64,000 nt of DNA from Caldithrix sp. (GCA_020720405.1 DYOS01000003.1:1-64000), one strand, 5' to 3'. Counted from the first letter of the stretch, positions 3,544 to 61,220 are shown. Numbers and translations are program-made. The notes: generated by a model from the sequence alone, not told the origin.

Positions 3544-5694
3544 TTAGCGGATCAATACCACCTTTTTCGGGATATTCATGCTAGCCGAATTAATATTAAT
3601 CAAATAAACTCCTGATGTAACCGAAGTTCCGTTTGAATTCATTCCGTCCCAGTGAAAGCGATGTTCTCCAGGAGTCAGACGTCCTGAATAAAGATTTATA
3701 ATTTTCTGCCCAAGCAGATTATATATCGTAATCTCCACCACCTGAGATTTTGGAAGGATCAAAGAAAAATAAGTGCTTGGGTTGAACGGATTAGGGAAAG
3801 CCTCGGAAATGATTACTTGATCCGGAATTTTTTCCGGAACAGAATGAATGGCAGTGGGATCTAATATCCAGTTCAGAGATCGTTCGAAAACAGTTTCAGG
3901 TTTCAAGTAGTTTTTACTGATTTGCTCTACGCCGAATGAAAATAAAACCAACCTATAACTACCGTCAAACTTTACAGCACCAGCATAAGCAGTACCCAGA
4001 TACTTAAATACATCCGTTGAACCGGGATCAGCCAACTTTTCCATCCGCTGCGCATTAGCCTTATTTATACCGATAAATTCATTATTTCCTATAGGATCAC
4101 CTTCCACCCCGCGCAACAGTTGCGTGGTGCTTGTTCCTGCATAACGGACATGCAGATAGTCTGCAGCAAAGGCCGAGTCTAATCCGGAATTAAACAAGGC
4201 ATCCCCGGAGAGTATCAGCTTACCACCCTGCGCAAGATAATTCTGGAGGAGAGAAGTATTACTGAATAATTTGGGTTCAGTATTTGAGTTCGCATACCAG
4301 ATACACAAAGGCACCAGTTGGAAAAGTGAATCGGAGATGGAGTCTCGCGGCAGTTCAACAAGAGCAAACTGATTAGCGAATCCATTGGTGGTCACATTGT
4401 CCATATAAAAATCGCGAATGCCTTGCCGGGTGTCAGAAGAGAGTGGCGCAATATCTTCAATCAATGCCATTGCTGCCGGTTCAATCTCGAGTTGAATCGT
4501 AGTATCTGCCTTGATAACTAAATCTTTTATCCCGATATATGGATATGGCAATTCTGGATAGATCTGAAAAGAGTACAGATCTTCAGATAGGATAAGCTCG
4601 GTTTCTTTATCCTGGTTACTTTTACTTTCAATGATATTCGTTCCGAGCACGTCACTCGATGCGGTTATCACAGCTCTATTGGCAATAAGCTGACTCGAAG
4701 TATTATCAATTAATTTAAAAGTCACCGCATGTTTTGGTTTTGGGCTCAGAGCAATTGTTGCCATTACTGTCGTGTCTATCACAGAACTGCTTCCAAGATA
4801 CAAATGAATGTTTTTATCCTGATATCCAAATGCGGATACTGTAAGTAAGGGGGTCTGATTTAAACTGATAAAACTAAAAGCAGCCGTCCCGTCGTTTACT
4901 TTCTCTAATTCGTCTGAGACATAACCAGCACGCTGATAAACGGCTTCCAAAACAACCGATGAAATATTTGCGGTCTGCTGGCCATTGAGATAATAAGTCG
5001 CAAAATCCAATAACTCACCAGTAACACTGTCCGTTACGGTTCCTGAAAACCTCCAACGTGGATAAATTGAGACCAGACCCAGGATATCATCAATATGTAA
5101 AGAGCGTTTTGATGTATCCCCATCGGAAGAGAAGCCATACATAGTGGCTTCCGGGATAACATCACCGACTCCCGGCGGAGAGCCAGGCTCCCCGGCATGT
5201 CCCAGACCGAGGTGGTGTCCAAATTCATGGGTGATAACAGATTGCAGGTCCTGTGCACCGGCGGCACCCGTTGTACTTGGTGGAAAATCAGCCGAATTCC
5301 AGATAAGATCAGACTCAACTGCCCGGTAGTTTGGCGTTGAATAGCCAGTGACAAAAGTGCTGGAGAATGCGATGGTTGAAGTTCCCTGTTCAAAATTTTC
5401 ATGATTGGAGTCAAAATAAACAAGGCTTGTATCGTCGTTTACCACACTATTGGAGTGCGTCATTCCGCCATATGCAAACTCAAAATATGACCCTGGAATA
5501 GCATTCCAGCTTTGTGCGCCTTGCTGAATTGGTTCAAGAAAATTATCCGGTGTGCTGTGATGCATAAAATAAACGAATGGCAGCTCAAATTTGCGGTAGG
5601 AGCGGTATCGGCCATCATCATCTGTCAGAATGCTAAATCCAAACAGGAATGATACAATAAGGGCGACGCTGATAAGATAAGTTTTTATTGTCAT
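3544..5694 (-). CDS. Secreted matrixin-type zinc metalloprotease with type IX sorting domain
   Basis: This 716-residue exported protein carries the complete metzincin zinc motif HEFGHHLGLGH (H156, E157, H160, H166). A Met-turn candidate (ATMYGF) lies about 20 residues on, so the peptidase is probably active. An N-terminal hydrophobic segment (about 7-22) is the signal. After beta-rich domains, residues about 415-620 form a Rossmann-like domain related to one in the protein at 6366-8414. The C-terminus has PNPFNPST, LLGQKI and TSGVYLI, the type A sorting domain of type IX substrates. The ATG lies 6 nt after the stop of the upstream gene with no clear Shine-Dalgarno, suggesting coupled translation. 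Substrate unknown. Confidence 0.85.
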   Translation of the reverse strand: MTIKTYLISVALIVSFLFGFSILTDDDGRYRSYRKFELPFVYFMHHSTPDNFLEPIQQGAQSWNAIPGSYFEFAYGGMTHSNSVVNDDTSLVYFDSNHENFEQGTSTIAFSSTFVTGYSTPNYRAVESDLIWNSADFPPSTTGAAGAQDLQSVITHEFGHHLGLGHAGEPGSPPGVGDVIPEATMYGFSSDGDTSKRSLHIDDILGLVSIYPRWRFSGTVTDSVTGELLDFATYYLNGQQTANISSVVLEAVYQRAGYVSDELEKVNDGTAAFSFISLNQTPLLTVSAFGYQDKNIHLYLGSSSVIDTTVMATIALSPKPKHAVTFKLIDNTSSQLIANRAVITASSDVLGTNIIESKSNQDKETELILSEDLYSFQIYPELPYPYIGIKDLVIKADTTIQLEIEPAAMALIEDIAPLSSDTRQGIRDFYMDNVTTNGFANQFALVELPRDSISDSLFQLVPLCIWYANSNTEPKLFSNTSLLQNYLAQGGKLILSGDALFNSGLDSAFAADYLHVRYAGTSTTQLLRGVEGDPIGNNEFIGINKANAQRMEKLADPGSTDVFKYLGTAYAGAVKFDGSYRLVLFSFGVEQISKNYLKPETVFERSLNWILDPTAIHSVPEKIPDQVIISEAFPNPFNPSTYFSLILPKSQVVEITIYNLLGQKIINLYSGRLTPGEHRFHWDGMNSNGTSVTSGVYLININSASMNIPKKVVLIR

Positions 5695-8494: not shown

Positions 8495-9490
8495 TTAGAA
8501 ACCAAAAACAAAGCCAAATCTGTGCAGATCGCCCAGATACTGATGGCGTTCATAGGCATAATCTATTTTAGCATCTATAGTATTCAGGTTTAACCCAACC
8601 CCGGCGCTGAAATTTTTATCATTCAATGTTGTATAACCAAGACGTAGTGCTAATGTATTTAAGGCGAGATATTCAACACCTGCTCCAAACATTTCAGACT
8701 GATCCGCCGGATTAATACCATCAAAACTGAGCACTATTTTTTGATTATCTGTATTAATCACGTCAATTGCAAATCCTAATTGCAGCTTTAGCGGTAATTG
8801 ATATTCTTCGGTTAAATATTCGGCCCGGCTATCCTCCTGTTGATTGATTTCATCCTTAAACACACGGGTTCTGAAAATGAGATCATCCCCGGTATATCTC
8901 AAATCCGGTCCAAAATTAGTAATAGCAAACCCAATTCTGAGGTTATTAAGTAACCCGGTGCGGTACATTCCGCCGATATCCATCGACCAGCCATTGGCTG
9001 ATAATTCGGCAATGTTTTGATTAATCACCTTAAAGGAAATTCCAGCCGAAAATTTATTTGAGATCTGGCGGCTATACGAGAGCCCGAAGGCATAATCGTT
9101 AGCATCATAGAATTCACCGGTGCCATCCGGAGCATCAACCGTTGTAATTTCAATATCTCCGCTTAATAAACCCATACCAAAAACACCAATAACACCATTC
9201 ATAAACGGTGTTGAAATAGCAAAATTTTCATAGGTCATATCCGCAAAATACTGCGTATGATTAAATCCAGCGTACACCTTATTGTTTAAGGTGGCCAAAC
9301 CAGCGGGATTCCAATATATCGCATCAAGACCTTCGGCAACTGCCGTATAAGCCGAACCCATTGAAATTGCCCGGAGACCGGAGCCAATTTGCATAAACTG
9401 TGCACCGGAAGATCCAATTCCAGCAAATAAGGAGCCGAAAGAGACAAGCAATAGCAGTGCACTTATATACGTAACAGATTTAGTTTTCAT
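8495..9490 (-). CDS. PorV/PorQ-family outer-membrane protein
   Basis: This 331-residue FadL-like beta-barrel has the family's start: signal peptide, then GAQFMQIGSGLRAISMGSAY followed by DAIYWNPAGLA. The rest is alternating aromatic strands ending in FGFVFGF. In Bacteroidetes, PorV acts as the shuttle that takes type IX substrates from the translocon to the attachment complex. That role here is inference from family membership and from its neighbours, two of which are large exported proteins with C-terminal sorting-like domains. The gene starts 15 nt after the upstream stop. Confidence 0.85.
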   Translation of the reverse strand: MKTKSVTYISALLLLVSFGSLFAGIGSSGAQFMQIGSGLRAISMGSAYTAVAEGLDAIYWNPAGLATLNNKVYAGFNHTQYFADMTYENFAISTPFMNGVIGVFGMGLLSGDIEITTVDAPDGTGEFYDANDYAFGLSYSRQISNKFSAGISFKVINQNIAELSANGWSMDIGGMYRTGLLNNLRIGFAITNFGPDLRYTGDDLIFRTRVFKDEINQQEDSRAEYLTEEYQLPLKLQLGFAIDVINTDNQKIVLSFDGINPADQSEMFGAGVEYLALNTLALRLGYTTLNDKNFSAGVGLNLNTIDAKIDYAYERHQYLGDLHRFGFVFGF

Positions 9491-35001: not shown

Positions 35002-36084
35002 CTAAAAGTCAACAGAAACGGAGAATCTCATGGTGTCCGATAGAGGATGGTTCTGCGCTGCGGAGATATAGCCAAAATCAAATCCGAACATATCCGCATA
35101 CATCAGACCGGCGCCAAAGGTAAGAAATTTACGGGCACCATATTTTTCGTCTTCATAGAAATACCCGGTGCGCAGGGCGATCAGGTTGCCGTACCAGTAT
35201 TCCATACCGACGGAATGGGAGAATCTTTTGAACGAATCTTCCTGCCCCCAGGTTGTGAAAAGCGCCGTGGTCCAGTCATCAGGTTTCTTGTCCTTGTATT
35301 TGCGGACCAGCAGGCGGTTCACATCGTAGAGGACATGAATCCGGTTGAATTCATCATCATACAGTTTATAGGAAAGCCCGAGACGCAGATTGGTGGGCAG
35401 CGGATCGGCCTGATCACGGTCAATATAAGTAATTTTTGGACCCATATTGGAAAGGTTAAAACCAAGACTAAGACGGTTCTGCAAATATGGTGTGGCAGGT
35501 GTCCAGAGCATACCCAGATCTACGGCAAATGTGGTGGCTACGCCTTTATCGTTTTCAGAGCCAACGGTAACATCCGAGAGTTGACTGTGGATGATTTTTA
35601 CATTTACACCGGTGCCAAGATTTTCCATTATTTTCGTGGCATAGGAAAGAGCAAAGGCATATTCATAGGAATCAAAAGTACCAAGCTCTGCCCCGTTTTC
35701 ATCGGTCCATACATTTTTACCCAGATTAAGGTAGGTAATACTTCCGCCCACTGTACCCAGATCTTCAATATAGTAACGGGCGGCCAGGTAATCGTAGTAC
35801 AGATCTTCAAAATTGAATTGGGGCAGCCATTTGGAATGCATAAAGGATATTTCGCCGACTTTGTCGGTTTCGGGATTTTCGTACTGAAAGGCCAGACCGG
35901 CCGGATTCCAGTAAACGGCATTGGCATCGTGAGCATAAGCCACACCGGCTTCACCCATTCCGCCATTGCGGGCGCCCGGAGAGATAACTAAAAAAGGAAC
36001 TGCGGCTTCACCCTGGGCAAAAACCACGGATTGCCCAAGAAAGGTTACAGCAAGAAAAAGTAGGAATGCAGTGAAGCGTTTCAT
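35002..36084 (-). CDS. PorV/PorQ-family outer-membrane protein
   Basis: This 360-residue protein has a signal peptide (KRFTAFLLFLAVTFLGQSVV) and then PFLVISPGARNGGMGEAGVA and NAVYWNPAGLAF, the landmarks of the PorV/PorQ family. The rest is a FadL-like barrel with strands such as LIALRTGYFYEDEK and ending MRFSVSVDF. A type IX shuttle or attachment role is inferred. The start has AGGAGG 6 nt upstream. The gene is flanked by a terminator (34936-34983) and by a structured leader with its own promoter (36100-36289), so it is largely an isolated, probably strongly expressed unit. The family protein at 8495-9490 is a paralogue. Confidence 0.88.
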   Translation of the reverse strand: MKRFTAFLLFLAVTFLGQSVVFAQGEAAVPFLVISPGARNGGMGEAGVAYAHDANAVYWNPAGLAFQYENPETDKVGEISFMHSKWLPQFNFEDLYYDYLAARYYIEDLGTVGGSITYLNLGKNVWTDENGAELGTFDSYEYAFALSYATKIMENLGTGVNVKIIHSQLSDVTVGSENDKGVATTFAVDLGMLWTPATPYLQNRLSLGFNLSNMGPKITYIDRDQADPLPTNLRLGLSYKLYDDEFNRIHVLYDVNRLLVRKYKDKKPDDWTTALFTTWGQEDSFKRFSHSVGMEYWYGNLIALRTGYFYEDEKYGARKFLTFGAGLMYADMFGFDFGYISAAQNHPLSDTMRFSVSVDF

Positions 36085-48768: not shown

Positions 48769-49548
48769 TTAACTCTCACCGTTCCTGCCCAGTACCTCAA
48801 GGGCCAAATTCAGGTAGGCTCTGGCACCTTGATCCGTGATGTTAACCAGAGCAGCCGGTTTCTCAAGAAAGGCGGCATAACCAAGGGCTGAGTTTTTTGG
48901 AATAATAGTTTTAAAAAGCAGGCTGCCGAAGGCGATCCGGGCTTCTTGCTGCACCCGCTCCGAAACCCTGGTTCCCTTCTCAAAAAAGTTCAGTAGAATT
49001 CCTTCGATCCGCAGGTCGGGGTTCACCGTCTGCCGCAGTTGCCGTATTATCCGCATTAGACGCCCAACGGCTTTTAGTGCAAAATGGCCGCACTGTAACG
49101 GAATAATAACCGAGTGGCTGGCCAGCAGAGCGCCAATAGTCAGATCGCTCAACGCTGGCGGGCTATCTATTATAATAAAATCGTATGGCTCATTGAGTTC
49201 AGTCAGACCCAGCAATTCTTTTTTTAATAAATTGCGGTTCTTAGCCAGATCGGCCAGCATGGTCTCATGATCACTGGTCCAGACATTACAGGGTACAATA
49301 TCAAGACCATTAAGACCGGTTGAATGTATAGCTGATTTAAGATCAGCGGTTCCACTAAATATATCCAGCACACCACATTTGATTTTGTCCCTGGTCAGAC
49401 CAAGCCCGGTACTGACCGCACCATCGGGATCGATATCAACAAGAAGGACTTTTCTGGCATAAATGGCCAGACTGGCCCCGAGATTTATGGTAGTCGTCGT
49501 TTTACCGACGCCGCCTTTGGGATTGGTGATGGTTATAATTCTGCTCAT
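48769..49548 (-). CDS. Orphan ParA/MinD-type ATPase linked to the chemosensory genes
   Basis: This 259-residue ATPase has the deviant Walker A of ParA/MinD (NPKGGVGKTTTTINLG), the switch region VLLVDIDPDGAVSTGLGL and FIIIDSPPALSDLTIGALLA. No parB gene adjoins it. It lies 32 nt after cheA. In Vibrio and Pseudomonas a ParA homologue in the chemotaxis operon (ParC/PpfA) positions the receptor array; the location suggests the same here, though no ParP-like gene was seen. Ordinary chromosome partition cannot be excluded. There is no clear Shine-Dalgarno before its ATG. Confidence 0.85.
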   Translation of the reverse strand: MSRIITITNPKGGVGKTTTTINLGASLAIYARKVLLVDIDPDGAVSTGLGLTRDKIKCGVLDIFSGTADLKSAIHSTGLNGLDIVPCNVWTSDHETMLADLAKNRNLLKKELLGLTELNEPYDFIIIDSPPALSDLTIGALLASHSVIIPLQCGHFALKAVGRLMRIIRQLRQTVNPDLRIEGILLNFFEKGTRVSERVQQEARIAFGSLLFKTIIPKNSALGYAAFLEKPAALVNITDQGARAYLNLALEVLGRNGES

Positions 49549-49580: not shown

Positions 49581-52500
49581 TTATTCTTCACCAAAGGCCG
49601 GTGTAATATTGATTAGCCGGCGGATACGTTTTTCTTCTTCCAGAACAGAAGAAATCAGGGAAGGAACATCAACGATCAAAGCTATGTCACCTCCACCCAG
49701 AATTGCGGCACCGCTGATTCCTTCAACCGCAACCACCTCATCTTCAAAAGATTTTATAACAATATCATGCTGGCCAACAAGTTTATTAACGAGCAACCCG
49801 ATTTCGTCACCACCCGACGAAACCACAACCATAAAAATATCACTGCTACTGCAGACCGGAACCGCATTAAATAATTCACCCAGGTCCAGTACCGAAATGA
49901 TTTTACTCCGATAATAAAAAACTGCATGGCCTTCAATGGAATCCAGGTGTTCAGGTTTAACTTTTATGGCCTCTATAACGGAGCTTAGCGGAATGGCCAG
50001 ATGATTATTCTGTACTTTTACAAGGAGAGCCTGAATGATGGCCAGTGTAAGGGGAATCTGAATCGTAAACCGGGTACCACGGGCGGGTTGCGAAGTGACA
50101 AGAATCTGTCCGCTCAAACGATCAATATTCCGTTTGACGACATCCAGACCGACACCCCGGCCCGAGAGGTTGCTTACTTTTTCTACCGTTGAAAAACCAG
50201 GCTGAAACAGGAGACCATAAATCTCTGACTCTTTCATGATATTCACGTAATCCTGGTTTAACAGATTTAGTTCAACCGCTTTGCGGATTACTTTTTCTTT
50301 ATCGATGCCACGACCATCGTCTTCCACTACGATATTAATTTTGCCACTTTCATGAAAAGCCCTGATTGACAATTTACCGGCTTCAGGCTTTCCTGCCAAA
50401 AGCCGTTCATGTGCACTTTCCAAACCGTGATCAATAGCATTCCGAATCAGATGCATCAGCGGATCAAGCATTTTCTCAATAACTGACTTATCAAGCTCAG
50501 TTTCCTCACCTATCATTACCAGCTCAGTTTCCTTTCCCGCTTCCTGGGAAATTTCCCTGACCATCCGTGGAAACCGGTTAAACAAGCTGCTGACCGGAAG
50601 CATGCGGATGCGCATCACCCCTTCCTGCAATTGGTTGGTAATGCGGATTAATTGGTTGGCGGTGCTGTCCATCTTTAATACAAATTCTTTCAGATGATGC
50701 TCAGCCACCGGGTTACGGTTTTCAAGATTCTTAAAAAAGCCGAACATGGAACGTAAATCCGCCGAAAGTTGATCTATCATCGAACGATTAACGACCAATT
50801 CTCCAACCAAAGACATCAGGTCTTCAATTTTTCCCACATCGACCCGCAAAGTTTTCTGCGGCACCATGGAGAGGTCAGCTTTGGCAGATGGCGTTTCCGG
50901 GAGGGGCATGTCAGGCGGCGGCTCAGTAATTATTTGCCTTTCAACCATGCCGGGAGCATTAATGGCAATTTCTTCCGGCTTTTTCTCCGCAGGTAAATCT
51001 GTAAAGATCAGACTCAGATCAAAATCATCAGCAGGTGCTGCTTTAGTTTTGGTTTCCGAATGGTCCGGGATGAGCTGTACAGGAAGACGTAAATATTTAT
51101 TCCAATCAAAACCTGTTGCACCGGGGATACTTTTTAAATCATCACAAAGCCTATGAATAAATCTTATTAAAACCGATTGAACCTCGGGTGTCTGAAAATC
51201 GGTTCCGATACTGACCGTCTCGAGCATATTCTCAACTTCACCAAGATGATTTAGAATAGAATCATAATTCATATAATTGGCCGAGCTATTTATCTGCTCG
51301 GTCAAATCGCGCAGAATTTCAGGAAGCTCATCCTGTATTATCCCTGCCTGAAGATCATTGGCAATACGGTATAATTGATCAAGGTAGCCGATATAATTTT
51401 CCATAAAAATACGCAGAAGCTCGGCATCTTCATTAACAAAATCGGGACTAACCGCTTTGGTTTCGGGCAGGGATTTTTTCGTCAGTTTATCCATTTTGTG
51501 GGCAAACCATGTATCAACCAGAAGGTTCAGGCGGGAAATACCACGCTGTAACTGACTGATATCCTGGCTGGAAAAAACAATTTTACCGGAAACAGCTATT
51601 TGCTGCTCCTTAACCAGGTCAATAACCCAGTCAATATCCATATAAATTGCCGACTGGCTTATTTTTTCGAGTTCCGCTAAAAATTTAACCCGCCCGCTTT
51701 CATTTTCCAGATCGGGCAGCAGCAACTCCAGGTTTTTTATATTGAACTGCAATGATTCAATAAAAATATGGGTTAGATTATGGTCATAGTCATCAAATAC
51801 AGCTCTTTTTTCTGCTTCAGTCAGCATAAAAGAAGATTCAGACCCGGCCTGACCTTCGCCGCTGCCTGATAGCCAGTTTTGAAGAGAATTGAACCAGGCA
51901 ATTATTTTTTCTTTATCCGGCTGATCATTACAAATGACATGCAAGCCCTGCTCAAACTTTTTTAATTCCTTCCAGATGGAATCAAAGCCCTGGTATTCAG
52001 CGATAATAAGCAATTGATTGAAACTGTCCCTTATCTCTTCCAGGTTTTTTAATGACAGTTTTTTCGATCTGATGCGTTGGTCAATTTTTTTAAGCAAAGC
52101 CTGAATGGATTCAGCCGCCAGGCCGGAAAATTCATAAAGCAGAGTACCAGGTTGTTCCTTACTTTCAGCTTGCACTATTACTGCTTGCTGCTGATTGACT
52201 GCGGATGCATCAGGAATAACTGACGGGATGAAGGGTTGCTCGCGTAACAGATTAAATTGCTGGACCAATCGATCGGTTGAAATAGTGCAGGAACCCTGCT
52301 CCTCGTATTGTTTCAGAATAGCCTTGATCTGATCTATCCCGGCGAAGATAGCATCATATATGGCCCGGCTGAATTGCTTCTGGTTTTTACGAATAGGGCT
52401 GAGCAGCTCTTCAACGGCATGGGTCAGATTGTAAATCGGGCTTAGCCCCAGATAACCGGAACTGCCCTTGATACTGTGAAAAGCCGCGAAGATATTATTG

Positions 52501-52613
52501 ATCAGTTCTTTATTCTGCTGATCTTTTTCCAGATTTACCAGATCGGGTTCTATCAGATCAATATGTTCGCGGGTTTCACTGATAAACTCGGGAAGCAAAG
52601 ACTGGTCAATCAT
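49581..52613 (-). CDS. cheA: Chemotaxis histidine kinase CheA with one active and extra degenerate Hpt-like domains
   Basis: CheA autophosphorylates under receptor control and passes the phosphate to response regulators. At 1010 residues it is much longer than the usual 650-700. The N-terminal Hpt has the phospho-histidine H46 in AAFHSIKGSSGYLGL. Three further helical segments (about 160-230, 265-335 and 395-465) follow the same spacing but lack the histidine, for example LTEQINSSANYMNYDSILNH. No CheY-binding P2 domain is seen. The dimerisation domain is 588-690, the kinase N, G1 and G2 boxes are HLIRNAIDHGLE (721-732), VEDDGRGID (763-771) and SGRGVGLDVVK (817-827), and a CheW domain occupies 855-990. 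It overlaps the PilZ gene by ATGA. Confidence 0.95.
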   Translation of the reverse strand: MIDQSLLPEFISETREHIDLIEPDLVNLEKDQQNKELINNIFAAFHSIKGSSGYLGLSPIYNLTHAVEELLSPIRKNQKQFSRAIYDAIFAGIDQIKAILKQYEEQGSCTISTDRLVQQFNLLREQPFIPSVIPDASAVNQQQAVIVQAESKEQPGTLLYEFSGLAAESIQALLKKIDQRIRSKKLSLKNLEEIRDSFNQLLIIAEYQGFDSIWKELKKFEQGLHVICNDQPDKEKIIAWFNSLQNWLSGSGEGQAGSESSFMLTEAEKRAVFDDYDHNLTHIFIESLQFNIKNLELLLPDLENESGRVKFLAELEKISQSAIYMDIDWVIDLVKEQQIAVSGKIVFSSQDISQLQRGISRLNLLVDTWFAHKMDKLTKKSLPETKAVSPDFVNEDAELLRIFMENYIGYLDQLYRIANDLQAGIIQDELPEILRDLTEQINSSANYMNYDSILNHLGEVENMLETVSIGTDFQTPEVQSVLIRFIHRLCDDLKSIPGATGFDWNKYLRLPVQLIPDHSETKTKAAPADDFDLSLIFTDLPAEKKPEEIAINAPGMVERQIITEPPPDMPLPETPSAKADLSMVPQKTLRVDVGKIEDLMSLVGELVVNRSMIDQLSADLRSMFGFFKNLENRNPVAEHHLKEFVLKMDSTANQLIRITNQLQEGVMRIRMLPVSSLFNRFPRMVREISQEAGKETELVMIGEETELDKSVIEKMLDPLMHLIRNAIDHGLESAHERLLAGKPEAGKLSIRAFHESGKINIVVEDDGRGIDKEKVIRKAVELNLLNQDYVNIMKESEIYGLLFQPGFSTVEKVSNLSGRGVGLDVVKRNIDRLSGQILVTSQPARGTRFTIQIPLTLAIIQALLVKVQNNHLAIPLSSVIEAIKVKPEHLDSIEGHAVFYYRSKIISVLDLGELFNAVPVCSSSDIFMVVVSSGGDEIGLLVNKLVGQHDIVIKSFEDEVVAVEGISGAAILGGGDIALIVDVPSLISSVLEEEKRIRRLINITPAFGEE

Positions 52614-53005
52614 ACTTCATCCTTTTTGATTTGGATAAACCGCTTCAAGGCTGCCAATGCTTCGGCATCGATACTGGAGAAATGTAAACCGGTTTCATAA
52701 ACACCGTGGCTTTTGCGATTACAGTAGCGGACAATACCAACGGCATTAATTTCTGATGTATCCACTGTTTTGCCGGACATTACTCCACTGCGACGCGAGA
52801 TGAGCACCGGTAAAGAAAAATCCAATTGCAGGATATCCCCCGGCCTGTACTCAATACTGCTCTCGATGGAAACACCGCCCGTGCTGATATTGGCCGAAAG
52901 TGCTTCATTTTTCTTAAAAGCTGAACTTAAAGGAAACTGCACTTTCTGAAGCTCGACACGGATTGTATTCGGTAAACGGAAAAATTTCCTGTTATCATCT
53001 TTCAC
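52610..53005 (-). CDS. PilZ-domain protein of the chemosensory operon
   Basis: This 131-residue protein has the PilZ signatures for c-di-GMP: RKFFRLPNTIRVEL near the N-terminus and SANISTGGVSIES (the D/NxSxxG element) about 35 residues later. It ends HFSSIDAEALAALKRFIQIK. It should be a cytoplasmic c-di-GMP receptor that links second-messenger level to the chemosensory output; the link is inferred from gene order. It overlaps both neighbours by ATGA, the unknown gene upstream and cheA downstream, so its translation is tied to theirs. Confidence 0.88.
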   Translation of the reverse strand: MKDDNRKFFRLPNTIRVELQKVQFPLSSAFKKNEALSANISTGGVSIESSIEYRPGDILQLDFSLPVLISRRSGVMSGKTVDTSEINAVGIVRYCNRKSHGVYETGLHFSSIDAEALAALKRFIQIKKDEV

Positions 53006-53388
53006 TGTTGACCTCCGCGGGGCACCTGGTCTTTAAACGGGTTTGGGTGATCTTCCCCGGCTCCGATTCGCCGACCGTCATAAGAAACCTGAAAAAACTT
53101 TATCCGGTGCAGTGTCTGGTCAAAGGTGTTTAATTTTTGCAGCAACCGTACAATTTCCGGGTTATTTTCCGAACCGGCCATACTCATCAAGCCATTTCTT
53201 AATTCAAGATTAACAGCAGCCATATACAACAGCAATTCCTGATCATTGGCCTGCCAGTCTGAAAGCAGAGAGGTTAAACCGGCCAGATCACCCGCTTCAT
53301 CGGATGTCAGATCCACGGCCAGGTCGCCATGAATAATGCATTTTATTTTTTCCAGTAATTCTGACCATCGCCGGTCATCGATCTGCAT
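53002..53388 (-). CDS. Unknown helical protein in the chemosensory operon
   Basis: I do not recognise this 128-residue protein. It has no signal peptide or membrane helix and is mostly helical (RWSELLEKIKCIIHGDLAVD, then LLLYMAAVNLELRNGLMSM and RLLQKLNTFDQTLHRIKFFQ), with a proline-rich tail. It lies between hemerythrin (19 nt) and PilZ (4-nt overlap). A CheZ-like or adaptor role would fit its size and position, but I see no CheZ motif. The ATGA overlap with the PilZ gene suggests the two products act together. Confidence 0.65.
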   Translation of the reverse strand: MQIDDRRWSELLEKIKCIIHGDLAVDLTSDEAGDLAGLTSLLSDWQANDQELLLYMAAVNLELRNGLMSMAGSENNPEIVRLLQKLNTFDQTLHRIKFFQVSYDGRRIGAGEDHPNPFKDQVPRGGQQ

Positions 53389-53407: not shown

Positions 53408-53833
53408 TTATTCGGTTAACTTTTCCACCTGGCCTTTTTCAATCAGAAACTTCCCAAGTTTTTTATCAATCTTGCCAATATGATCCACCAGCCAGGTCAC
53501 CAGGAATGCTTGTAAGATTACCGCTAACGCGGCGCTTCCACCCTGCTCCTCCAACCGTTTACGGTAACCTAGAACAGCCTGGATAAAGTTCGTATGTTCT
53601 TCTTTATGCTGCGCATAACCAGGATAGCGATGAGTGGTCATTAATTTTTCCTCCATACTAAAATGGAGGGTTACATAATTTGCCAAAAAATCAAAAATCT
53701 TTAAAATATTTGGCTTTGAGCGATTTTCGCGCACGGCAACAAGTAAATCATTTATTTTCTCAAAGAGCTGACGATGCTGCATATCGATTGTTTTTTCACC
53801 GACATTATAAATGTCGTTCCATATCAAAGGCAT
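53408..53833 (-). CDS. Bacteriohemerythrin
   Basis: This 141-residue protein of the hemerythrin fold binds O2 or senses redox through a di-iron site. The ligands are in place: MPLIWNDIYNVGEKTIDMQH (first histidine), VTLHFSMEEKLM (His and Glu), YAQHKEEH (two His) and WLVDHIGKID (His and Asp). It lies in the chemosensory operon 13 nt before the next gene upstream in order, cheY. It may deliver or report oxygen to the system, which is inference; free hemerythrins can also be O2 stores. Confidence 0.93.
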   Translation of the reverse strand: MPLIWNDIYNVGEKTIDMQHRQLFEKINDLLVAVRENRSKPNILKIFDFLANYVTLHFSMEEKLMTTHRYPGYAQHKEEHTNFIQAVLGYRKRLEEQGGSAALAVILQAFLVTWLVDHIGKIDKKLGKFLIEKGQVEKLTE

Positions 53834-53846
53834 ACACTTCTCCTCT

Positions 53847-54200
53847 CTACCCTTTTTCTAATAACACGCCAAGCTGGTCCAGGTCATCTTTATGGATAAA
53901 ACCCCGCACACCCATGTCTAAGGCAGAAGTTTCATATTCGGATTCGCGCAGCATTGTTAAAATATAGATGACGGCATTTGGGTCCATTTGAAGAATTTCC
54001 CTGCTCGCGGTAAGCCCGTCTTTACCGCGCATGGTAATATCCATGGTAACCAATCCCGGCTTTAACCGGTTGTATAATTCAATGGCTTCTCCACCATCCC
54101 GGGCTTCCCCCAGTACGGTAAAACCAAGCGCTGTTAACTGCTCCTTAATCCGTTTTCGCATAAAGGTTGAATCATCAACCACTAATACGGTTTTGTTCAT
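53847..54200 (-). CDS. CheY-like single-domain response regulator
   Basis: This 117-residue receiver starts at ATG 54200 and reads MNKTVLVVDDSTFMRKRIKE. The phospho-acceptor lies in GLVTMDITMRGKDGL and the conserved lysine in GFIHKDDLDQL. Residues for the switch (YILTML) are present. It would be the diffusible output of CheA, though the motor or effector it binds is not in the window. It lies 23 nt after the receptor gene. Confidence 0.9.
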   Translation of the reverse strand: MNKTVLVVDDSTFMRKRIKEQLTALGFTVLGEARDGGEAIELYNRLKPGLVTMDITMRGKDGLTASREILQMDPNAVIYILTMLRESEYETSALDMGVRGFIHKDDLDQLGVLLEKG

Positions 54201-54223
54201 ACACACTCCACAAAACCTTTTAA

Positions 54224-56560
54224 TTATATTTTAAAATTACCAATCAATTGGGCCATAGCCTGAGCTTCTTCGGTTAGAGAAGCAATAAGCCTGGCGTTGG
54301 CGCTGGCCAGTTCGGTGTTTTGAGCACTAATCCCGGAAAGACTATTCAGCGATTCAGCCACCTTCTGGGTACGCACACCCTGTTTGCCAGTCATTTCCTT
54401 AATATCCGTACTCGTTAAACGAAGTTCTTCCGCGCCCTTCCGTAAATCGGAAACAGATTTTATCTGCATATTGGCGCTTTCATCTACTTCTTCTGAAATT
54501 TTACCGATTTCCTGGGAACGGATCAGAATGGAGGATGACGAATTTTTAAGCGTTCCAAGCATTTCCACCACCTGACCGGTTTGTTCGAGTACAGTATCCA
54601 TAGAGGTTTTGATTTCGACGGCGCGGAGGGCATTCTGAGCGGCATTGGCGCCGGCAATTTCCGCATTTTTCAATGTTTTAGATGCCGTATCGATTAATCC
54701 GCCCAAAACCCCGGCCGTGTTACTGATTTGCTGGTTACCTTGCTCAACACGCTTGGTCGATTCTTTAATCAGGCTGGTAATTTCAGCGGCAGCATCCGCA
54801 GAACGGACAGCCAGTTTACGAACTTCATCGGCCACCACCGCGAAACCTTTCCCGTGTTCACCGGCCCGGGCAGCTTCAATAGCAGCATTCAAAGCTAAAA
54901 GGCTGGTCAAGTCGGCGATATCCGTAATGGTCGCCGTGATTTCTTCGATCTGACCGGAGCTTTCCCGAATGGCCGTCATAGCCTGTACCGCATCCTGCAC
55001 TGCCTGCACACCATCCCGGGCAATTTTTTCTGCCTCCTGTGAACGCTCAATATTCTCCTTCGATGCCGTCACAACCTGGGCAATTGCAGCGTCCAGACTC
55101 TGAATTACTTTTCCGGCTTCCTTTGCACTGCCAGCCATATCCTGCGTTGAATTTAAAATTTCCAAGACGATGTCATTGGTTGAAGCGATAATATTGATCG
55201 TATTGACTGAGCCTTCGAGCGCCACCCGTGATTTTTCTGAGAGCTCACCTGAATTTTTCATCAAATTTTCTGAAAATTTTTCTATCGAAGTGGAAAGTTC
55301 ATCGTTTTTAGATGTGTTCTGCTGTACTTCCTGGGCAGTTGTCCGGATATCCCGGATAACCCCGTCAATTTCTCCGGCCAGGGTATTTTGTTCACTGGCG
55401 CCTTTCGCTACCTGTTGAGCATTCTCCTTCACCGTGGTTGAAACCTGGGCCACTTTTACTACCGCTGTGCGGAATCGGCCCATAACCCCCTGCAGAAAGT
55501 CCATGAAAGTATTAAAATTTTGTGCAAGCTGCCCCACCTCATCCCCGGACTCAACCGGGATACGAAAGGTCAGATCCCCGCCGACTGTGGCCAACTGCCC
55601 CATCAAAGCGGCAATCTCGTTTAGGGGTTTGGTAACCCGGCGGATAAGAAAGGTCAAAACAAATCCAAGCAATAAAACTACGCCAATGCCTGTGAAAATA
55701 TTAGCAACCATAGTTGATCTGATTCTTTCGGCGTAGGGCGTATAATCCAATGGGAATACCACTACCCCTTCTGTTTTACCACTGTAATCATTAAAGGGGT
55801 AAATGCCGTAATAAATGTTATTTTCAATAATTGATGAGGGCTGATCATTTTGATAAGTTTGGCCAAAACGCTGAAGCATGGCTTGGGAGAGGATGAGTTC
55901 CCGGCCAGATTTGGCGATAACATCAAACTTTGATGCTTGTGCATTATAGTAAAAAATATATAAATCCTGGTTATTACTACTTTTCATCTTTTGGGCAAAA
56001 TTATCATCAAGACTGGATCCAAATTCCATTGAACCAATATGATTGTTTTTGAAAAAGACGGGGAGTACCGCCCGCACGCCGGCGCCAAACACACCCACAT
56101 CCACACCTATAGCCGGCCGTAATTCCCGGTTGGCAGTAACGATGGTCGGCCGGATTTGCGTCAAGTCGTCGCCATATTTTTCCAGACCGTGAACACGGAG
56201 AAACGAAGTAGCCGGAGCCAGGTGAAACTGAAACTGAGCCATGATCAGGTCTTTGTTCAGGTTGCGAAAAATCGGATACGTCAGCTCAGTCAGCCTCTGC
56301 CGGTCGCGATCGGCAAAAGCCTGAACGATCTGGTCATCTTCAAGCACCCACCTGGCCAATGAAAAAGCCCGAAAACCTTCGTTCTCAATCTGGGTTTTAA
56401 AAAAGGTGAAAGCTGATTCACTCAGTTTTTCGGCTTCATCGCTAATCAAAACTACCTGGTTAGTCGTTTCCCGCCAGGTTCTAAAAATTGAAAAAATAAA
56501 CACGATGGCAACAATCGTGAGCACCAGTTTGGTGGCAATACGCATATTTTTAAAGTTCAT
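54224..56560 (-). CDS. Methyl-accepting chemotaxis protein with Cache-type sensor
   Basis: This 778-residue chemoreceptor has transmembrane helix 1 (about 10-27), a periplasmic Cache-like sensor (28-285), helix 2 (286-306), HAMP (307-360) and a signalling domain (380-778). The sensor has the signature [18 protein letters not shown] and [15 protein letters not shown], the dCache_3-like type. The hairpin tip is [20 protein letters not shown]. No CheR-binding pentapeptide is at the C-terminus (LIGNFKI). It is the only receptor in this operon. Its ligand is unknown. Confidence 0.93.
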
Positions 56561-56603: not shown

Positions 56604-57116
56604 CTACTCAACCAATTTCTGAAGACCGGTTTTTTCTGACAAATGCAGAATTCTGGAAAAATCGAGTAAGATCAGGAGCCGGCCTTCTAACTTACAAACC
56701 CCGGTGATATAAACGGATTCAACCCCGGCGATAACAATGTCCGGTGTTTTTTCTATAACCGAAGCCGGAACTGCCGAGACACCAGTTACTTCGTCAACAA
56801 TAAAACCGATGATTTTATGCTCAATTTCAATATTCAGAATTCGTGTTTTCATCTCAACATTATTTGCTTTTATTTTTAACCGCTTGCGCAGATCAATCAC
56901 CGGAATCACCCGGCCTCGTAGATTGATAACCCCTTCCACAAAGGGCGGTGTATGCGGGACACGCGTCACCTCCTGGTAGCGGATGATTTGATTTACCCAA
57001 TGGATGGAGGTGGCAAATTCTTCAGTCCCAAGTTTGAAACTGACCAACTCAATCATCGATGATTCTTCTGTTCTCTCCGGATGACTGACCTGAAATTTTT
57101 CAGGATTGTTTTTCAT
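56604..57116 (-). CDS. cheW: Chemotaxis coupling protein CheW
   Basis: This 170-residue adaptor joins receptors to CheA. After a 20-residue leader it has MIELVSFKLGTEEFATSIHW, VTRVPHTPPFVEGVINLRGR, VIPVIDLRKRLK, IIGFIVDEVTGVSAVPASVI and GRLLILLDFSRIL, the complete CheW pattern. The start at 57116 is supported by AGGAG 5 nt upstream. It follows the CheB-like fusion gene by 55 nt and precedes the receptor gene by 43 nt. Confidence 0.95.
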   Translation of the reverse strand: MKNNPEKFQVSHPERTEESSMIELVSFKLGTEEFATSIHWVNQIIRYQEVTRVPHTPPFVEGVINLRGRVIPVIDLRKRLKIKANNVEMKTRILNIEIEHKIIGFIVDEVTGVSAVPASVIEKTPDIVIAGVESVYITGVCKLEGRLLILLDFSRILHLSEKTGLQKLVE

Positions 57117-57171
57117 ATTTGCTCCTGCAAAATATATTCTCCCCCTAAGCGGTGATGACTATCTGTTTCGA

Positions 57172-59193
57172 TCAGACATTTTCCATCTCCCGGAAAATAT
57201 CTGCCATACAATAATTATAGATTTTAGTACCCATGTTATTGATCGGGAAAACTTCCATCGCGGCATTTTGACGAAGTGCCGCTGTAATTGAAGTGGAATG
57301 CAAAGCTGTTGATGGATCCTGTACAAGCGTGTAGCCTCCCTGCCGGCGAATCTCGGTTAATCCGTCGGCCCCGTCGGTTTCAGATCCGGCCAGCAACACA
57401 CCGATCACCCGGTCAGTGGCAATATCGGCAACGGAAAACATGGCGATATTTAGGTTTTGCTTTAAATTAGATTCAAAAGGCCTGGCATTGCAGTTAAGAT
57501 GTAAATCAGAACCGGTCAAATTAAAACTGCCATACTGACTTTGAGGTATAAAATAACAGGTTCCGTTTTCAAGTCTGTGGTGTGACCCGGCAATTTGATA
57601 ATGCAATTCGGTATATTTTGTCAGATAATTAACAAAAACCGCTAAATGCTCCTCGGCGATGTATTGAAGAACGACAATTGGGGCAGCAATATCACCATCT
57701 ATTTGACTAAGTAATTGAAGCAGTGCCTGATAATTTCCCGAAGGGGAGGCCAGAAGCAGCAGATTACGATTGGCCGATATATTCGGGGGACTGTGGCGCC
57801 GCTTTGTTTTACGAAGCTGGATGTGGCGGAGACCCCGGATATTTATTGTTGACGCCAATTCAATTTTTGAAAATAATTCCTGCTGCTGCACCTCAAATTT
57901 ATCCTGTGTTTCCTGTACCGGCTTGGTAAAAAAATCTACTGCGCCAAAGCGTAAGGCTTCGAAGGTAGTCAGTGAACCCTCCTGCGTCAGGGCACTTAGC
58001 ATAACAACGGGGGTTGGATGGCTGAGCATGATATGTTTTAACGTCGTTAATCCATCCATACCAGGCATTTGCACATCGAGCGTAATAACATCCGGATGAA
58101 AGGTTTTTACTAACTGAAGGGCATCCGTTCCGCTCTGAGCCTCCATTAATTCAACCCCGGGCGCAACTGCGCGTAGCGAACGGCCGAGCATGGTCAGCAT
58201 TAATTTTGAATCATCCACAAGCAGAATTTTCAAATGATCTTTGGCCACCACTATTGTAGCGTCTGAAGAGTCCAGAGCCGGAACCCGTTCAACCAGTTTA
58301 CATTTCTTGTTCCGCTCCAGATAGAGGTAATTAAAAGCAGCAATGTTCCGGTTTAATTGATTGGCGGCAATCAACTCAGCCAGAGTAAGTTGATTATCGA
58401 TTAAGCTTAGATAAAACCAATGTGATGGATCGATATCATCTTCAATTACCTGACTGCGTCTTACTGGTACCAGCCTTAACAGGTCTTCCAGTTCATCGAT
58501 AAATTTTGTACCATCAAGCAATGCAGAATGAAACCCGGCTGTGAAATTTGCACCAATATTTTCCTGTACATCCCGTTGAAACTGGAAGGAGCCCACTTGC
58601 CAGGATAAGAGATCATACAGGGCCGACTCACCTTCAGCTTCATTTGAAAATACGGCAAATATCTCCCCCTGCCGGATGTGGATGGTAGCCTGCTTATTCA
58701 TATGCTGTAAATACAGTACACCTGTTTTCCGGCTCAGGTTGATAATTTGCAAAACATCGGGCAGACAAATCTCGGTTAGTAAACCATTCAGGGATGATTG
58801 TTTGCTTTTCAGCCGGTTGGCTTCTTCCAAACGCTGTTTTACCGTATGGATCAACGGAAGAAGCACTTCAGGTGACTCTTTTTTATTAAAAAAATCTACC
58901 ACCCCTAAAGCTTTGGCCTGCTCATGGTCTCGCTGCCGGTTATACTCCGAATAAATAATTTTTGGAATCTGGGCATTACTTTTATCTTCATTTATTTTTT
59001 GGATAAGCTGAAACCCATCGATGCCATTTAAATTAATGTCAATGATCATCAGATCAGGCTGCGGGTTTTCATTAAGACGAATCAAGGCCCTAAAGACATC
59101 ACTAAAGATTTCGGTTTCACCTTCGGCTTTACTGATCATACTTTCCAGTTTTGCGGAACTGGTTTCATCTTTGTCAATAATCATTATTTTCAT
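57172..59193 (-). CDS. REC-PATAN-REC-CheB-like fusion with a lost catalytic histidine
   Basis: This 673-residue protein has a receiver (1-118, acceptor D52), a PATAN/DUF4388 domain (about 130-240, SRKTGVLYLQHMNKQATIHI), a second receiver (320-435, D373, TKP lysine) and a CheB-type linker and domain (478-655). In the CheB part, serine S483 (LLASPSGN) and aspartate D607 (GSETDGADG) align with the triad, but the histidine in the QHM motif is tyrosine (IVVLQYIAEEH, Y511). Methylesterase activity is therefore unlikely. It lies 4 nt after the REC-REC-PATAN gene. PATAN domains take part in motility control in cyanobacteria. Confidence 0.85.
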   Translation of the reverse strand: MKIMIIDKDETSSAKLESMISKAEGETEIFSDVFRALIRLNENPQPDLMIIDINLNGIDGFQLIQKINEDKSNAQIPKIIYSEYNRQRDHEQAKALGVVDFFNKKESPEVLLPLIHTVKQRLEEANRLKSKQSSLNGLLTEICLPDVLQIINLSRKTGVLYLQHMNKQATIHIRQGEIFAVFSNEAEGESALYDLLSWQVGSFQFQRDVQENIGANFTAGFHSALLDGTKFIDELEDLLRLVPVRRSQVIEDDIDPSHWFYLSLIDNQLTLAELIAANQLNRNIAAFNYLYLERNKKCKLVERVPALDSSDATIVVAKDHLKILLVDDSKLMLTMLGRSLRAVAPGVELMEAQSGTDALQLVKTFHPDVITLDVQMPGMDGLTTLKHIMLSHPTPVVMLSALTQEGSLTTFEALRFGAVDFFTKPVQETQDKFEVQQQELFSKIELASTINIRGLRHIQLRKTKRRHSPPNISANRNLLLLASPSGNYQALLQLLSQIDGDIAAPIVVLQYIAEEHLAVFVNYLTKYTELHYQIAGSHHRLENGTCYFIPQSQYGSFNLTGSDLHLNCNARPFESNLKQNLNIAMFSVADIATDRVIGVLLAGSETDGADGLTEIRRQGGYTLVQDPSTALHSTSITAALRQNAAMEVFPINNMGTKIYNYCMADIFREMENV

Positions 59194-59196
59194 CGG

Positions 59197-60189
59197 TTAA
59201 ATAGCCAATTCTTCCGGCTCAAGCTGGATATTGCCGGATTTCAAAGTGCTTAGAATATCCAATGCCTCGGCTTCCCGGTATTGATTGAAAGTCATACTGA
59301 TAAATTCGCCACGCTTCATCAAAATACTTCCTGTACCGGCAGGACTTGTGATGGTCAATTTTCCTGAAAACCCGTTAATCTCACAGGTTTTTAGTACTTC
59401 AAGCACACCTTTCCGGCTCAGGTCAAAAACAAGTTCACGGCGTGGTATCACATTAGTCAGTCGCATTAACTTTAGTTTTAAACCATCAACACCAAGATTC
59501 TTATAGACAAATTCATCAACCCCCACCTTTACACCCTCCGCAACCATGTCTGAATTCCCGGAGGAAAGCAATAGAAAAAATTTAACATCCGGATTGGTAC
59601 TTTTCACTTGTTGGCAAAGCGTTGTGCCACTGCCGTCGGCGAGTTTTGTACCGCTAATTACCACATCGAAGGGTGATGAATTGAATATTTTTATTGCTTC
59701 AGCCACCCGGTCTGTCGTATAGATCGTATAGCCATCCCGACTTAGTTCATTTTCAGTTTTTTTTGAAATGATCTGATTGGATTCAACAAAAAGCAACCGT
59801 AAGTGGTGACCTGTATAGTGTTCCTGTTTGCGCAGGATATAGGTAAGCCGGACATTAAGGTCATTTAAATCAAACGGCTTGGTGATATAATCATCGGCCC
59901 CAATTTCAAGACCTTTTAAGATGTCCTCTTTCTCGCTGCGGCTGGAAATAAAAACAAAAGGTAAGGTGGATGTGTCCAGATTTCTTTTCAATGTATAATA
60001 AACTTCAAGGCCGCCAACCGGCTCCATTATCAGATCGCAAAGAATAAGGTGTGGTTTAAACTCACGAATATCACTTAATGCGGAAGCTGCTGAATTCAGG
60101 CACTTAACGTTAAAACCGCAGCCTTTTAGAAAGTCCTGGAGAATGTCTGTAACCAGATGTTCATCATCAAAGATAAGGATTCTGTTCAT
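59197..60189 (-). CDS. REC-REC-PATAN response regulator
   Basis: This 330-residue protein has a receiver with acceptor D52 (LILCDLIMEPVGGLEV) and lysine in YITKPFDLND. A second receiver (about 130-245) has FDVVISGTKLADG, lacking the aspartate (Ser/Gly at 179-180) but with the lysine in FVYKNLG. A C-terminal PATAN/DUF4388 domain (about 252-330, SRKGVLEVLKTCEING, then GSILMKRGEF) follows. The second receiver is probably a phosphate-independent pseudo-receiver. It lies 3 nt before the PATAN-CheB-like gene and 23 nt after the first CheB-like gene. Confidence 0.87.
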   Translation of the reverse strand: MNRILIFDDEHLVTDILQDFLKGCGFNVKCLNSAASALSDIREFKPHLILCDLIMEPVGGLEVYYTLKRNLDTSTLPFVFISSRSEKEDILKGLEIGADDYITKPFDLNDLNVRLTYILRKQEHYTGHHLRLLFVESNQIISKKTENELSRDGYTIYTTDRVAEAIKIFNSSPFDVVISGTKLADGSGTTLCQQVKSTNPDVKFFLLLSSGNSDMVAEGVKVGVDEFVYKNLGVDGLKLKLMRLTNVIPRRELVFDLSRKGVLEVLKTCEINGFSGKLTITSPAGTGSILMKRGEFISMTFNQYREAEALDILSTLKSGNIQLEPEELAI

Positions 60190-60212
60190 TTGTTGTATTT
60201 ACTGCTTTTCAC

Positions 60213-61220
60213 TTAGTACAACTCCCCCAGATTGGGTACAGCCGTTATGGTCAGCTTGCTTCTGCTATCTGAAATTTGTCGTATAAATTGCGGGAAAAGA
60301 CAGGTTTCCGGGGTGGCTGAAAAAAAAACAGCCCCGCTTTTCTGCCATTTGATAATATTTGCATCTGAAATAGATAGATCACTACTGAGCAAAACTATCT
60401 GCGCCTTGCGTCGCAGGTGTTCAGGAAAATTCTCCGGATGGGGAATCTCCCGGTTCTGATTAGGTCCGGTCAGGTTAATGCTGATTTTATTCTCCAATTC
60501 ATCAATCCTTATTTCCTGTTCCAACGAAATAAGAACTACTTTCTCGTTTAGGATGGTAATTGAATCACCGGCAAAAATTATCGGTTCGTTACTAACATCG
60601 TTTAATCTGCGGTTGAATGCCTTTAGTAATCCCGGAGGAAAGTCAAGCATTAGCAAGATTAGTCTTCCCGCAGGAAGCATGGGGTTCTGCATAAATCGGA
60701 TAACCTGACTCAGGGCGCCGGAACCACCGATCACCAGCACGATCCCTTTTATTTTTTGTTGAGCTGTTTCTTTTTTTTGAGTCATTTTCTGCCCGACCCG
60801 TACCCGCCGGATTGCTGATATGTTAACCTTTGACGCTTTTTTTACCTTTGCAATCAGCTCTGATTTTTGTTTGGCAATATCCCCTGAAATACTTCCCGAT
60901 GGCTTTTTAACAACTTCAACAGATCCCAATCGCCACGATTCAAAATTTATTTCCGGGTCATCAGCCAGGGCACTAACCAGAACAATGGGTATCGGTGTCT
61001 TCATCATAAAATGTTTGAGAGCAGTGAGACCATCCATGGTCGGCATATCAATGTCCATGGTAATTACATCGGGTTTAAGCGTCTGTGCTAATTCAAGCGC
61101 TTCCCTTCCGTTCTTTGCTGTCCCAATAACTTCAAGTGCTTCATCCGTACTGAAGATATCAGTCAAGGCTTGACGCATAAACTTTGTATCATCAACTACC
61201 AATAATCTAATTTTCTGCAC
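60213..61220 (-). CDS. CheB-like response regulator with a degenerate methylesterase domain
   Basis: This 335-residue protein has a canonical receiver of the CheB type (D56 in VITMDIDMPTMDGLTALKHF) and the CheB linker. Its C-terminal domain keeps the fold signs VLVIGGSGALSQ (S167) and FPPGLLKAFNRRLN. At the place of the catalytic histidine, however, it has aspartate (LLMLDFPPG, D193), and the GMGxDG aspartate motif is not recognisable (LLSSDLSISDANI). It is therefore probably inactive as an esterase. The start is GTG 61218-61220. It is the first gene of the chemosensory operon after a 283-nt gap. Confidence 0.83.
   Translation of the reverse strand: MQKIRLLVVDDTKFMRQALTDIFSTDEALEVIGTAKNGREALELAQTLKPDVITMDIDMPTMDGLTALKHFMMKTPIPIVLVSALADDPEINFESWRLGSVEVVKKPSGSISGDIAKQKSELIAKVKKASKVNISAIRRVRVGQKMTQKKETAQQKIKGIVLVIGGSGALSQVIRFMQNPMLPAGRLILLMLDFPPGLLKAFNRRLNDVSNEPIIFAGDSITILNEKVVLISLEQEIRIDELENKISINLTGPNQNREIPHPENFPEHLRRKAQIVLLSSDLSISDANIIKWQKSGAVFFSATPETCLFPQFIRQISDSRSKLTITAVPNLGELY

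Follow-up and report, generated by a model that had tools for sequence, protein, structure and literature searches.

Two CheB-like proteins without an intact catalytic triad in an atypical chemosensory operon of Caldithrix sp.

CheB is the textbook methyl-removing enzyme and works with a Ser-His-Asp triad, which raises the question of what a single chemosensory operon would do with two CheB-like proteins that have lost it. Such an operon lies in a stretch of 64,000 nucleotides of Caldithrix sp. DNA (GCA_020720405.1, DYOS01000003.1:1-64000), referred to here as the window. An earlier note on this DNA had described its two CheB-like proteins, here named A and B, as lacking the catalytic histidine. 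Both are real REC-CheB-type proteins encoded on the minus strand (Pfam), and both appear to be without catalysis, a loss larger than the note had stated, as the nucleophile is also gone in A. We consider A to be, on balance, a non-catalytic regulator that serves binding and output under REC control in an atypical chemosensory operon, and B a second, more decayed CheB-like protein. No report of a catalytically dead CheB was found in the literature searched. The features that matter most are the following:

57172..59193, minus strand: protein A, 673 residues, REC1-PATAN-linker-REC2-CheB-type domain (Pfam and homologues)
58489..58785, minus strand: PATAN (DUF4388) domain of A (Pfam, 60.8 bits, cut-off 25)
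57907..58227, minus strand: REC2 of A, with the acid pair, phospho-Asp, Ser and Lys kept (Pfam and alignment)
57220..57750, minus strand: CheB-type domain of A (Pfam CheB_methylest, 103 bits, above the cut-off of 24)
57742..57744, minus strand: codon of Pro484 of A, nucleophile Ser column (MAFFT, hidden Markov model (HMM), phmmer)
57661..57663, minus strand: codon of Tyr511 of A, catalytic His column (alignments)
57373..57375, minus strand: codon of Asp607 of A, the sole triad residue kept (alignment)
60213..61220, minus strand: protein B, 335 residues, REC and a strongly degenerate CheB-type domain (Pfam, NCBIfam, AlphaFold2 (AF2) model)
60732..60734, minus strand: codon of Val163 of B, nucleophile Ser column in the gapless alignment (the alternative, S167, is at 60720-60722)
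60642..60644, minus strand: codon of Asp193 of B, catalytic His column (alignments)

All 29 distinct canonical CheBs compared, taken from this phylum and from outside it, retain S, T, H, M and D. Both A and B have lost the equivalents of Thr, Met and the GMP loop, positions at which the canonical set varies little or not at all. The QHMPPG histidine is indeed missing from both, its column being occupied by Tyr511 in A and Asp193 in B. The serine, which the earlier note had read as kept (S483 in A, S167 in B), does not hold up. Pro484 falls on the nucleophile of A in three alignments (MAFFT, an HMM of the 29 canonical CheBs, and phmmer to PDB 6ymz), S483 sits one residue upstream, and the modelled structure has S483 as the last residue of the strand and P484 as the first of the loop. 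The triad columns of A read Pro484/Tyr511/Asp607, of which only Asp607 matches Ser-His-Asp.

Protein B has drifted further. The gapless alignment puts Val163 at the nucleophile column and S167 four residues downstream of it, at the start of a helix; the HMM alternative brings S167 onto the Ser column only through a deletion of four residues (TGGt) at low posterior. The helix in the model begins at S167, at the very place where a canonical CheB would have completed its STGG turn, and the serine turn of B appears to be gone or remodelled. The decay of the GMGxDG motif reported for the shorter protein is borne out, as its aspartate column holds Ile, and with Val163 (or a shifted S167)/Asp193/Ile there seems to be no triad residue kept with confidence. 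The CheB domain of B is 17% identical to canonical CheBs and 15% to that of A, and Pfam scores it at 19.5 bits, below the cut-off of 24, alongside a Response_reg match of 71.8 bits whose phospho-site residues are intact (alignment). An origin of B as a duplicate of A was considered and set aside because the tree was unable to place B on its long branch.

Profile scores set the same proteins apart. A set of 40 genomes from the phylum yields 43 Pfam CheB_methylest matches. Of these matches, 40 score 144-227 bits; the three low outliers are A (106 bits), a homologue of A in the genome G010 (99.8 bits) and B (19.9 bits). Against the NCBIfam CheB model, with its cut-off of 293 bits, the intact CheBs of the window's own genome reach 439 and 411, whereas A reaches 232.8, B 165 and the G010 homologue 143.

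The REC-CheB architecture and the predicted fold are nevertheless kept in both proteins (Pfam, AF2, Foldseek). The AF2 model of the REC2-CheB part of A (predicted local distance difference test (pLDDT) 88, predicted template modelling (pTM) score 0.85) matches full-length Salmonella CheB 1a2o with a template modelling (TM) score of ~0.85 over both domains, and its CheB domain matches the T. maritima CheB domain 3sft with a TM score of 0.91. The model of B (pLDDT 84.5) matches 1a2o with a TM score of 0.80 overall and only ~0.7 for the CheB domain. A and B share with the CheB methylesterases (Salmonella 1a2o/1chd, P. atrosepticum 6ymz) the REC-linker-CheB order, the predicted fold and the interdomain arrangement; they differ in having no nucleophile Ser, catalytic His or GMG/GMP loops, in the REC1-PATAN that A adds, and in an operon without cheR. 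The PATAN domain noted earlier as fused to one of the two is confirmed in A, beside a REC.

The contig of the window (C95) belongs to a 3.33 Mb genome in 266 contigs, 97% complete. The host is most likely an uncultured bacterium of the family Calditrichaceae, because the nearest named relative found is a Calditrichaceae metagenome-assembled genome placed in the same family. G010 (CSMAG_417, family Calditrichaceae, 73% complete) holds the only other full-length A homologue among the 40 phylum genomes (29% identity, 283 bits). The full architecture of A was found in no further genome out of 385, ~345 of them outside the phylum, and a scan of 84,980 named genomes, which is not exhaustive as it used two short patterns only, returned G010 and one mis-binned copy. 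The CheB-type domains of A and its homologue are 30% identical to each other, each being ~22% identical to canonical CheBs, and form a supported clade (99/96); that they are closer to each other than to the canonical enzymes argues for a changed domain that was kept rather than lost. The homologue has Ser, Asp in place of His, and Asp in its triad columns, so the substitutions in A, for which the earlier note had suggested looking in related genomes, are shared only at the His column, where the relative too has a replacement, and the Ser and Asp are kept there.

The mis-binned copy is the 4253 bp contig L108 (DYQT01000259.1, 1-4253), 99.88% identical to window positions 56827-61079 and encoding a protein A identical to that of the window. 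It is binned under Draconibacterium orientale (Bacteroidota) in a metagenome labelled SulCav; it probably derives from the same species as the window and was likely assigned in error in the public record.

Eleven co-directional genes with intergenic gaps of at most 55 bases make up the chemosensory operon, in the order B, a REC-REC-PATAN-like regulator, A, CheW, a methyl-accepting chemotaxis protein (MCP), CheY, bacteriohemerythrin, a 128-residue protein, a PilZ protein, CheA and a ParA-like ATPase. Besides A and B it encodes:

59197..60189, minus strand: REC-REC-PATAN-like response regulator, 330 residues, second REC apparently altered (Pfam Response_reg, 126 bits over two stretches)
56604..57116, minus strand: CheW (Pfam, 126 bits)
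54224..56560, minus strand: MCP, dCache_3-HAMP-MCPsignal with a long cytoplasmic hairpin (Pfam and methylation-site scan)
53847..54206, minus strand: CheY-like single REC (Pfam)
53408..53833, minus strand: bacteriohemerythrin (NCBIfam, above cut-off)
53002..53388, minus strand: 128-residue protein between the bacteriohemerythrin and PilZ genes, no Pfam or NCBIfam family matched
52610..53005, minus strand: PilZ-domain protein (Pfam, 38.6 bits)
49581..52613, minus strand: CheA, 1010 residues (Pfam)
51093..51824, minus strand: residues 264-507 of CheA, a tandem segment, probably of histidine-less Hpt type (BLASTP to a G010 protein)
48769..49548, minus strand: ParA/MinD-like ATPase at the operon end (Pfam AAA_31, 159 bits)

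In the 330-residue regulator DUF4388 scores 18.7 bits, under the Pfam cut-off of 25, and the second REC, as read from the sequence, appears to be without the phospho-acceptor Asp. CheA consists, by Pfam, of an Hpt domain with its His, ~480 residues of mostly unassigned segments, and H-kinase_dim, HATPase and CheW domains. The presence of a bacteriohemerythrin gene (53408-53833) in the operon hints at an input by oxygen or some other small ligand. Elsewhere the window holds parts of a type IX-like secretion system, with two PorV-like proteins (8495-9490 and 35002-36084) and a protein with a Por_Secre_tail / FlgD_ig C-terminus (3544-5694).

A candidate partner of A emerges from G010, where the homologue stands outside any detected array. 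A glycosidase-like open reading frame (ORF) lies upstream of it and an extracytoplasmic function (ECF) sigma factor downstream; directly behind the homologue, between it and the sigma gene, is a stand-alone 274-residue ORF colinear with residues 264-507 of the window CheA (BLASTP 75 bits, E 3e-19; best of 200 shuffles 28.9 bits). A search of the 40 genomes with the CheA segment gave clear matches in the window genome (G000) and G010 and two further marginal ones (E ~0.003-0.007), and only in these two of the 40 does a homologue of the segment co-occur with A. No kinase, CheW or MCP sequence is found on the G010 contig carrying the A homologue, and searches of the G010 genome yielded no CheW domain, MCP or CheR, and no CheB other than the orphan homologue. 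Its persistence beside the CheA-segment homologue without a detected array suggests that the dead enzyme is retained as a switchable binding part, and the orphan pair points to CheA 264-507 as the partner of A. This segment contains two related helical repeats (P 8e-6) of Hpt-like layout with Glu at the His position (LEKISQSAIYMDI and TEQINSSANYMNY, vs FHSIKGSSGYLGL in the true Hpt), and probably represents histidine-less Hpt repeats. Such domains occur in multi-Hpt CheAs, where their role is stated as undetermined (PMC10782961).

In the mechanism that we propose, the former CheB domain of A, which has lost its nucleophile and general base and is predicted to keep its fold and receiver contact, would serve as a REC-gated protein-binding module. 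CheA would phosphorylate the receivers, A may dock on the probably histidine-less Hpt-like mid-segment of CheA, and the output may come from the PATAN domain of A, in analogy to the PATAN-REC proteins of cyanobacteria, whose target is PilB, the motor of type IV pili. B would be the more decayed of the two CheB-like proteins and may be no more than a phosphate sink, and adaptation of the operon's array would probably proceed without receptor methylation. The earlier suggestion that the CheB fold has become a binding or signalling module suits A, with its modelled fold kept and an orphan homologue that persists, but not clearly B, whose retained function is no more likely than simple decay.

Several points weigh against this mechanism. 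At 73% completeness, the absences in G010 are not firm. In the G010 homologue the phosphorylation residues of REC2 are gone, which rules out gating by REC2 as a general feature. The input alignment of the A model held canonical CheBs, which favoured a canonical arrangement. The CheA repeats match the true Hpt weakly (P 0.016), Pfam finds no Hpt in CheA 264-507, and both Pfam and PDB searches of the segment came back empty. No output partner has been identified for A, type IV pilus genes not having been searched for.

The earlier note had further argued that the system lost methylation-based adaptation, having seen no cheR in the window. No CheR is among the operon's genes or elsewhere in the window, and the genome-wide search for cheR and intact cheB that the note had proposed located two of each, as cheR-cheB pairs on the contigs C148 and C192. 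In other bacteria CheR and CheB are able to serve arrays besides their own; as these pairs could act in trans, loss of methylation is not proven, and A and B might be extra regulators on top of an array methylated by enzymes encoded elsewhere. This we hold to be rather improbable in view of the receptors. The two MCPs on C192, which also carries CheD-, CheY- and CheZ-like ORFs (by inspection of the sequence), show consensus methylation pairs, placed at -88 and +101 relative to the tip of the hairpin, whereas the operon MCP has no strict consensus site at the equivalent methylation-helix positions and no NWETF-type tail. It has one consensus match at -29, near the tip, and its hairpin is ~twelve heptads longer per arm than those of the C192 MCPs. 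Loss of methylation adaptation in the operon's array is likely, the lack of consensus sites at the expected positions of its own receptor speaking for it and the two CheR and two intact CheB elsewhere against. The N-terminal EQ site of the operon MCP (54224-56560) is also set ~84 residues farther away from the tip than that of the C192 MCPs. The latter (L070, 11628-14357 and 15326-17476) end in similar acidic-aromatic C-terminal tails, LDDDEFGDF and LDDDDFQDF, absent from other MCPs of the same genome and possibly a tether for adaptation enzymes instead of NWETF.

It could also be that the operon lost cheR and both CheB domains then drifted neutrally, leaving only the receiver and PATAN parts at work. 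The comparison with L108 bears on this directly: all five differences lie in gene B, which makes up about a fifth of the length compared, and three of them change residues of its CheB domain, which, small as their number is, fits relaxed constraint, as does the low identity of that domain to canonical CheBs and to A. The 2 kb of A are free of differences, its CheB-type domain is as conserved towards G010 (30%) as its REC1 (32%), and its fold is predicted intact, which makes neutral drift of both domains an unlikely account, though one to be taken seriously. Far less credible is that A and B remain active as methylesterases or deamidases through a displaced catalytic residue. A does keep Asp607, and His516 and His632 lie near canonical active-site motifs in sequence; these two were tried as a displaced histidine and rejected because the G010 homologue has Tyr and Lys in their places. 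The nucleophile position of A is Pro, the equivalents of Thr, Met and the GMP loop are changed, and the only histidines of B are His70, 261 and 268.

Among known systems, methylation-free chemosensory arrays include that of H. pylori, with CheV, and the cyanobacterial tax systems; to our knowledge these lack CheB altogether. The array of this operon is likewise likely to be without receptor methylation, but two dead CheB-like proteins are kept here. The cyanobacterial type IV pilus PATAN-REC regulators (PixG, PilG, TaxP2, PixE) likewise fuse PATAN to receivers within a Che-type operon. We know of none with a CheB domain, which A has, and the pilus link of A is by analogy only. Binding of PATAN regulators to the pilus motor PilB has been described in Synechocystis (PMC10519157, PMC9090330). 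The window CheA recalls the ChpA-type CheA of P. aeruginosa (Tfp class), with a true Hpt and Hpt-like segments without His, and Rhodobacter CheA3, whose conserved ends enclose degenerate internal Hpt domains (PMC10782961). It differs from ChpA in a segment unrecognised by Pfam, in having no C-terminal REC and in the free-standing G010 version, and from CheA3 in its kinase core, which the window CheA has intact and which is absent beside the G010 gene.

For A as a REC-gated, non-catalytic binding and output regulator, a dead-enzyme clade with its fold retained suggests that the REC-CheB unit is reusable as a switchable binding module. We would go further only as a conjecture: a dead CheB joined to receiver and PATAN domains may form, with a CheA-derived histidine-less Hpt-like segment, a free-standing pair working without receptors, kinase core or methylation, and the histidine-less Hpt domains of CheA proteins might then be docking sites for specific response regulators. 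The orphan pair in G010 gives a direct test of the role of these domains.

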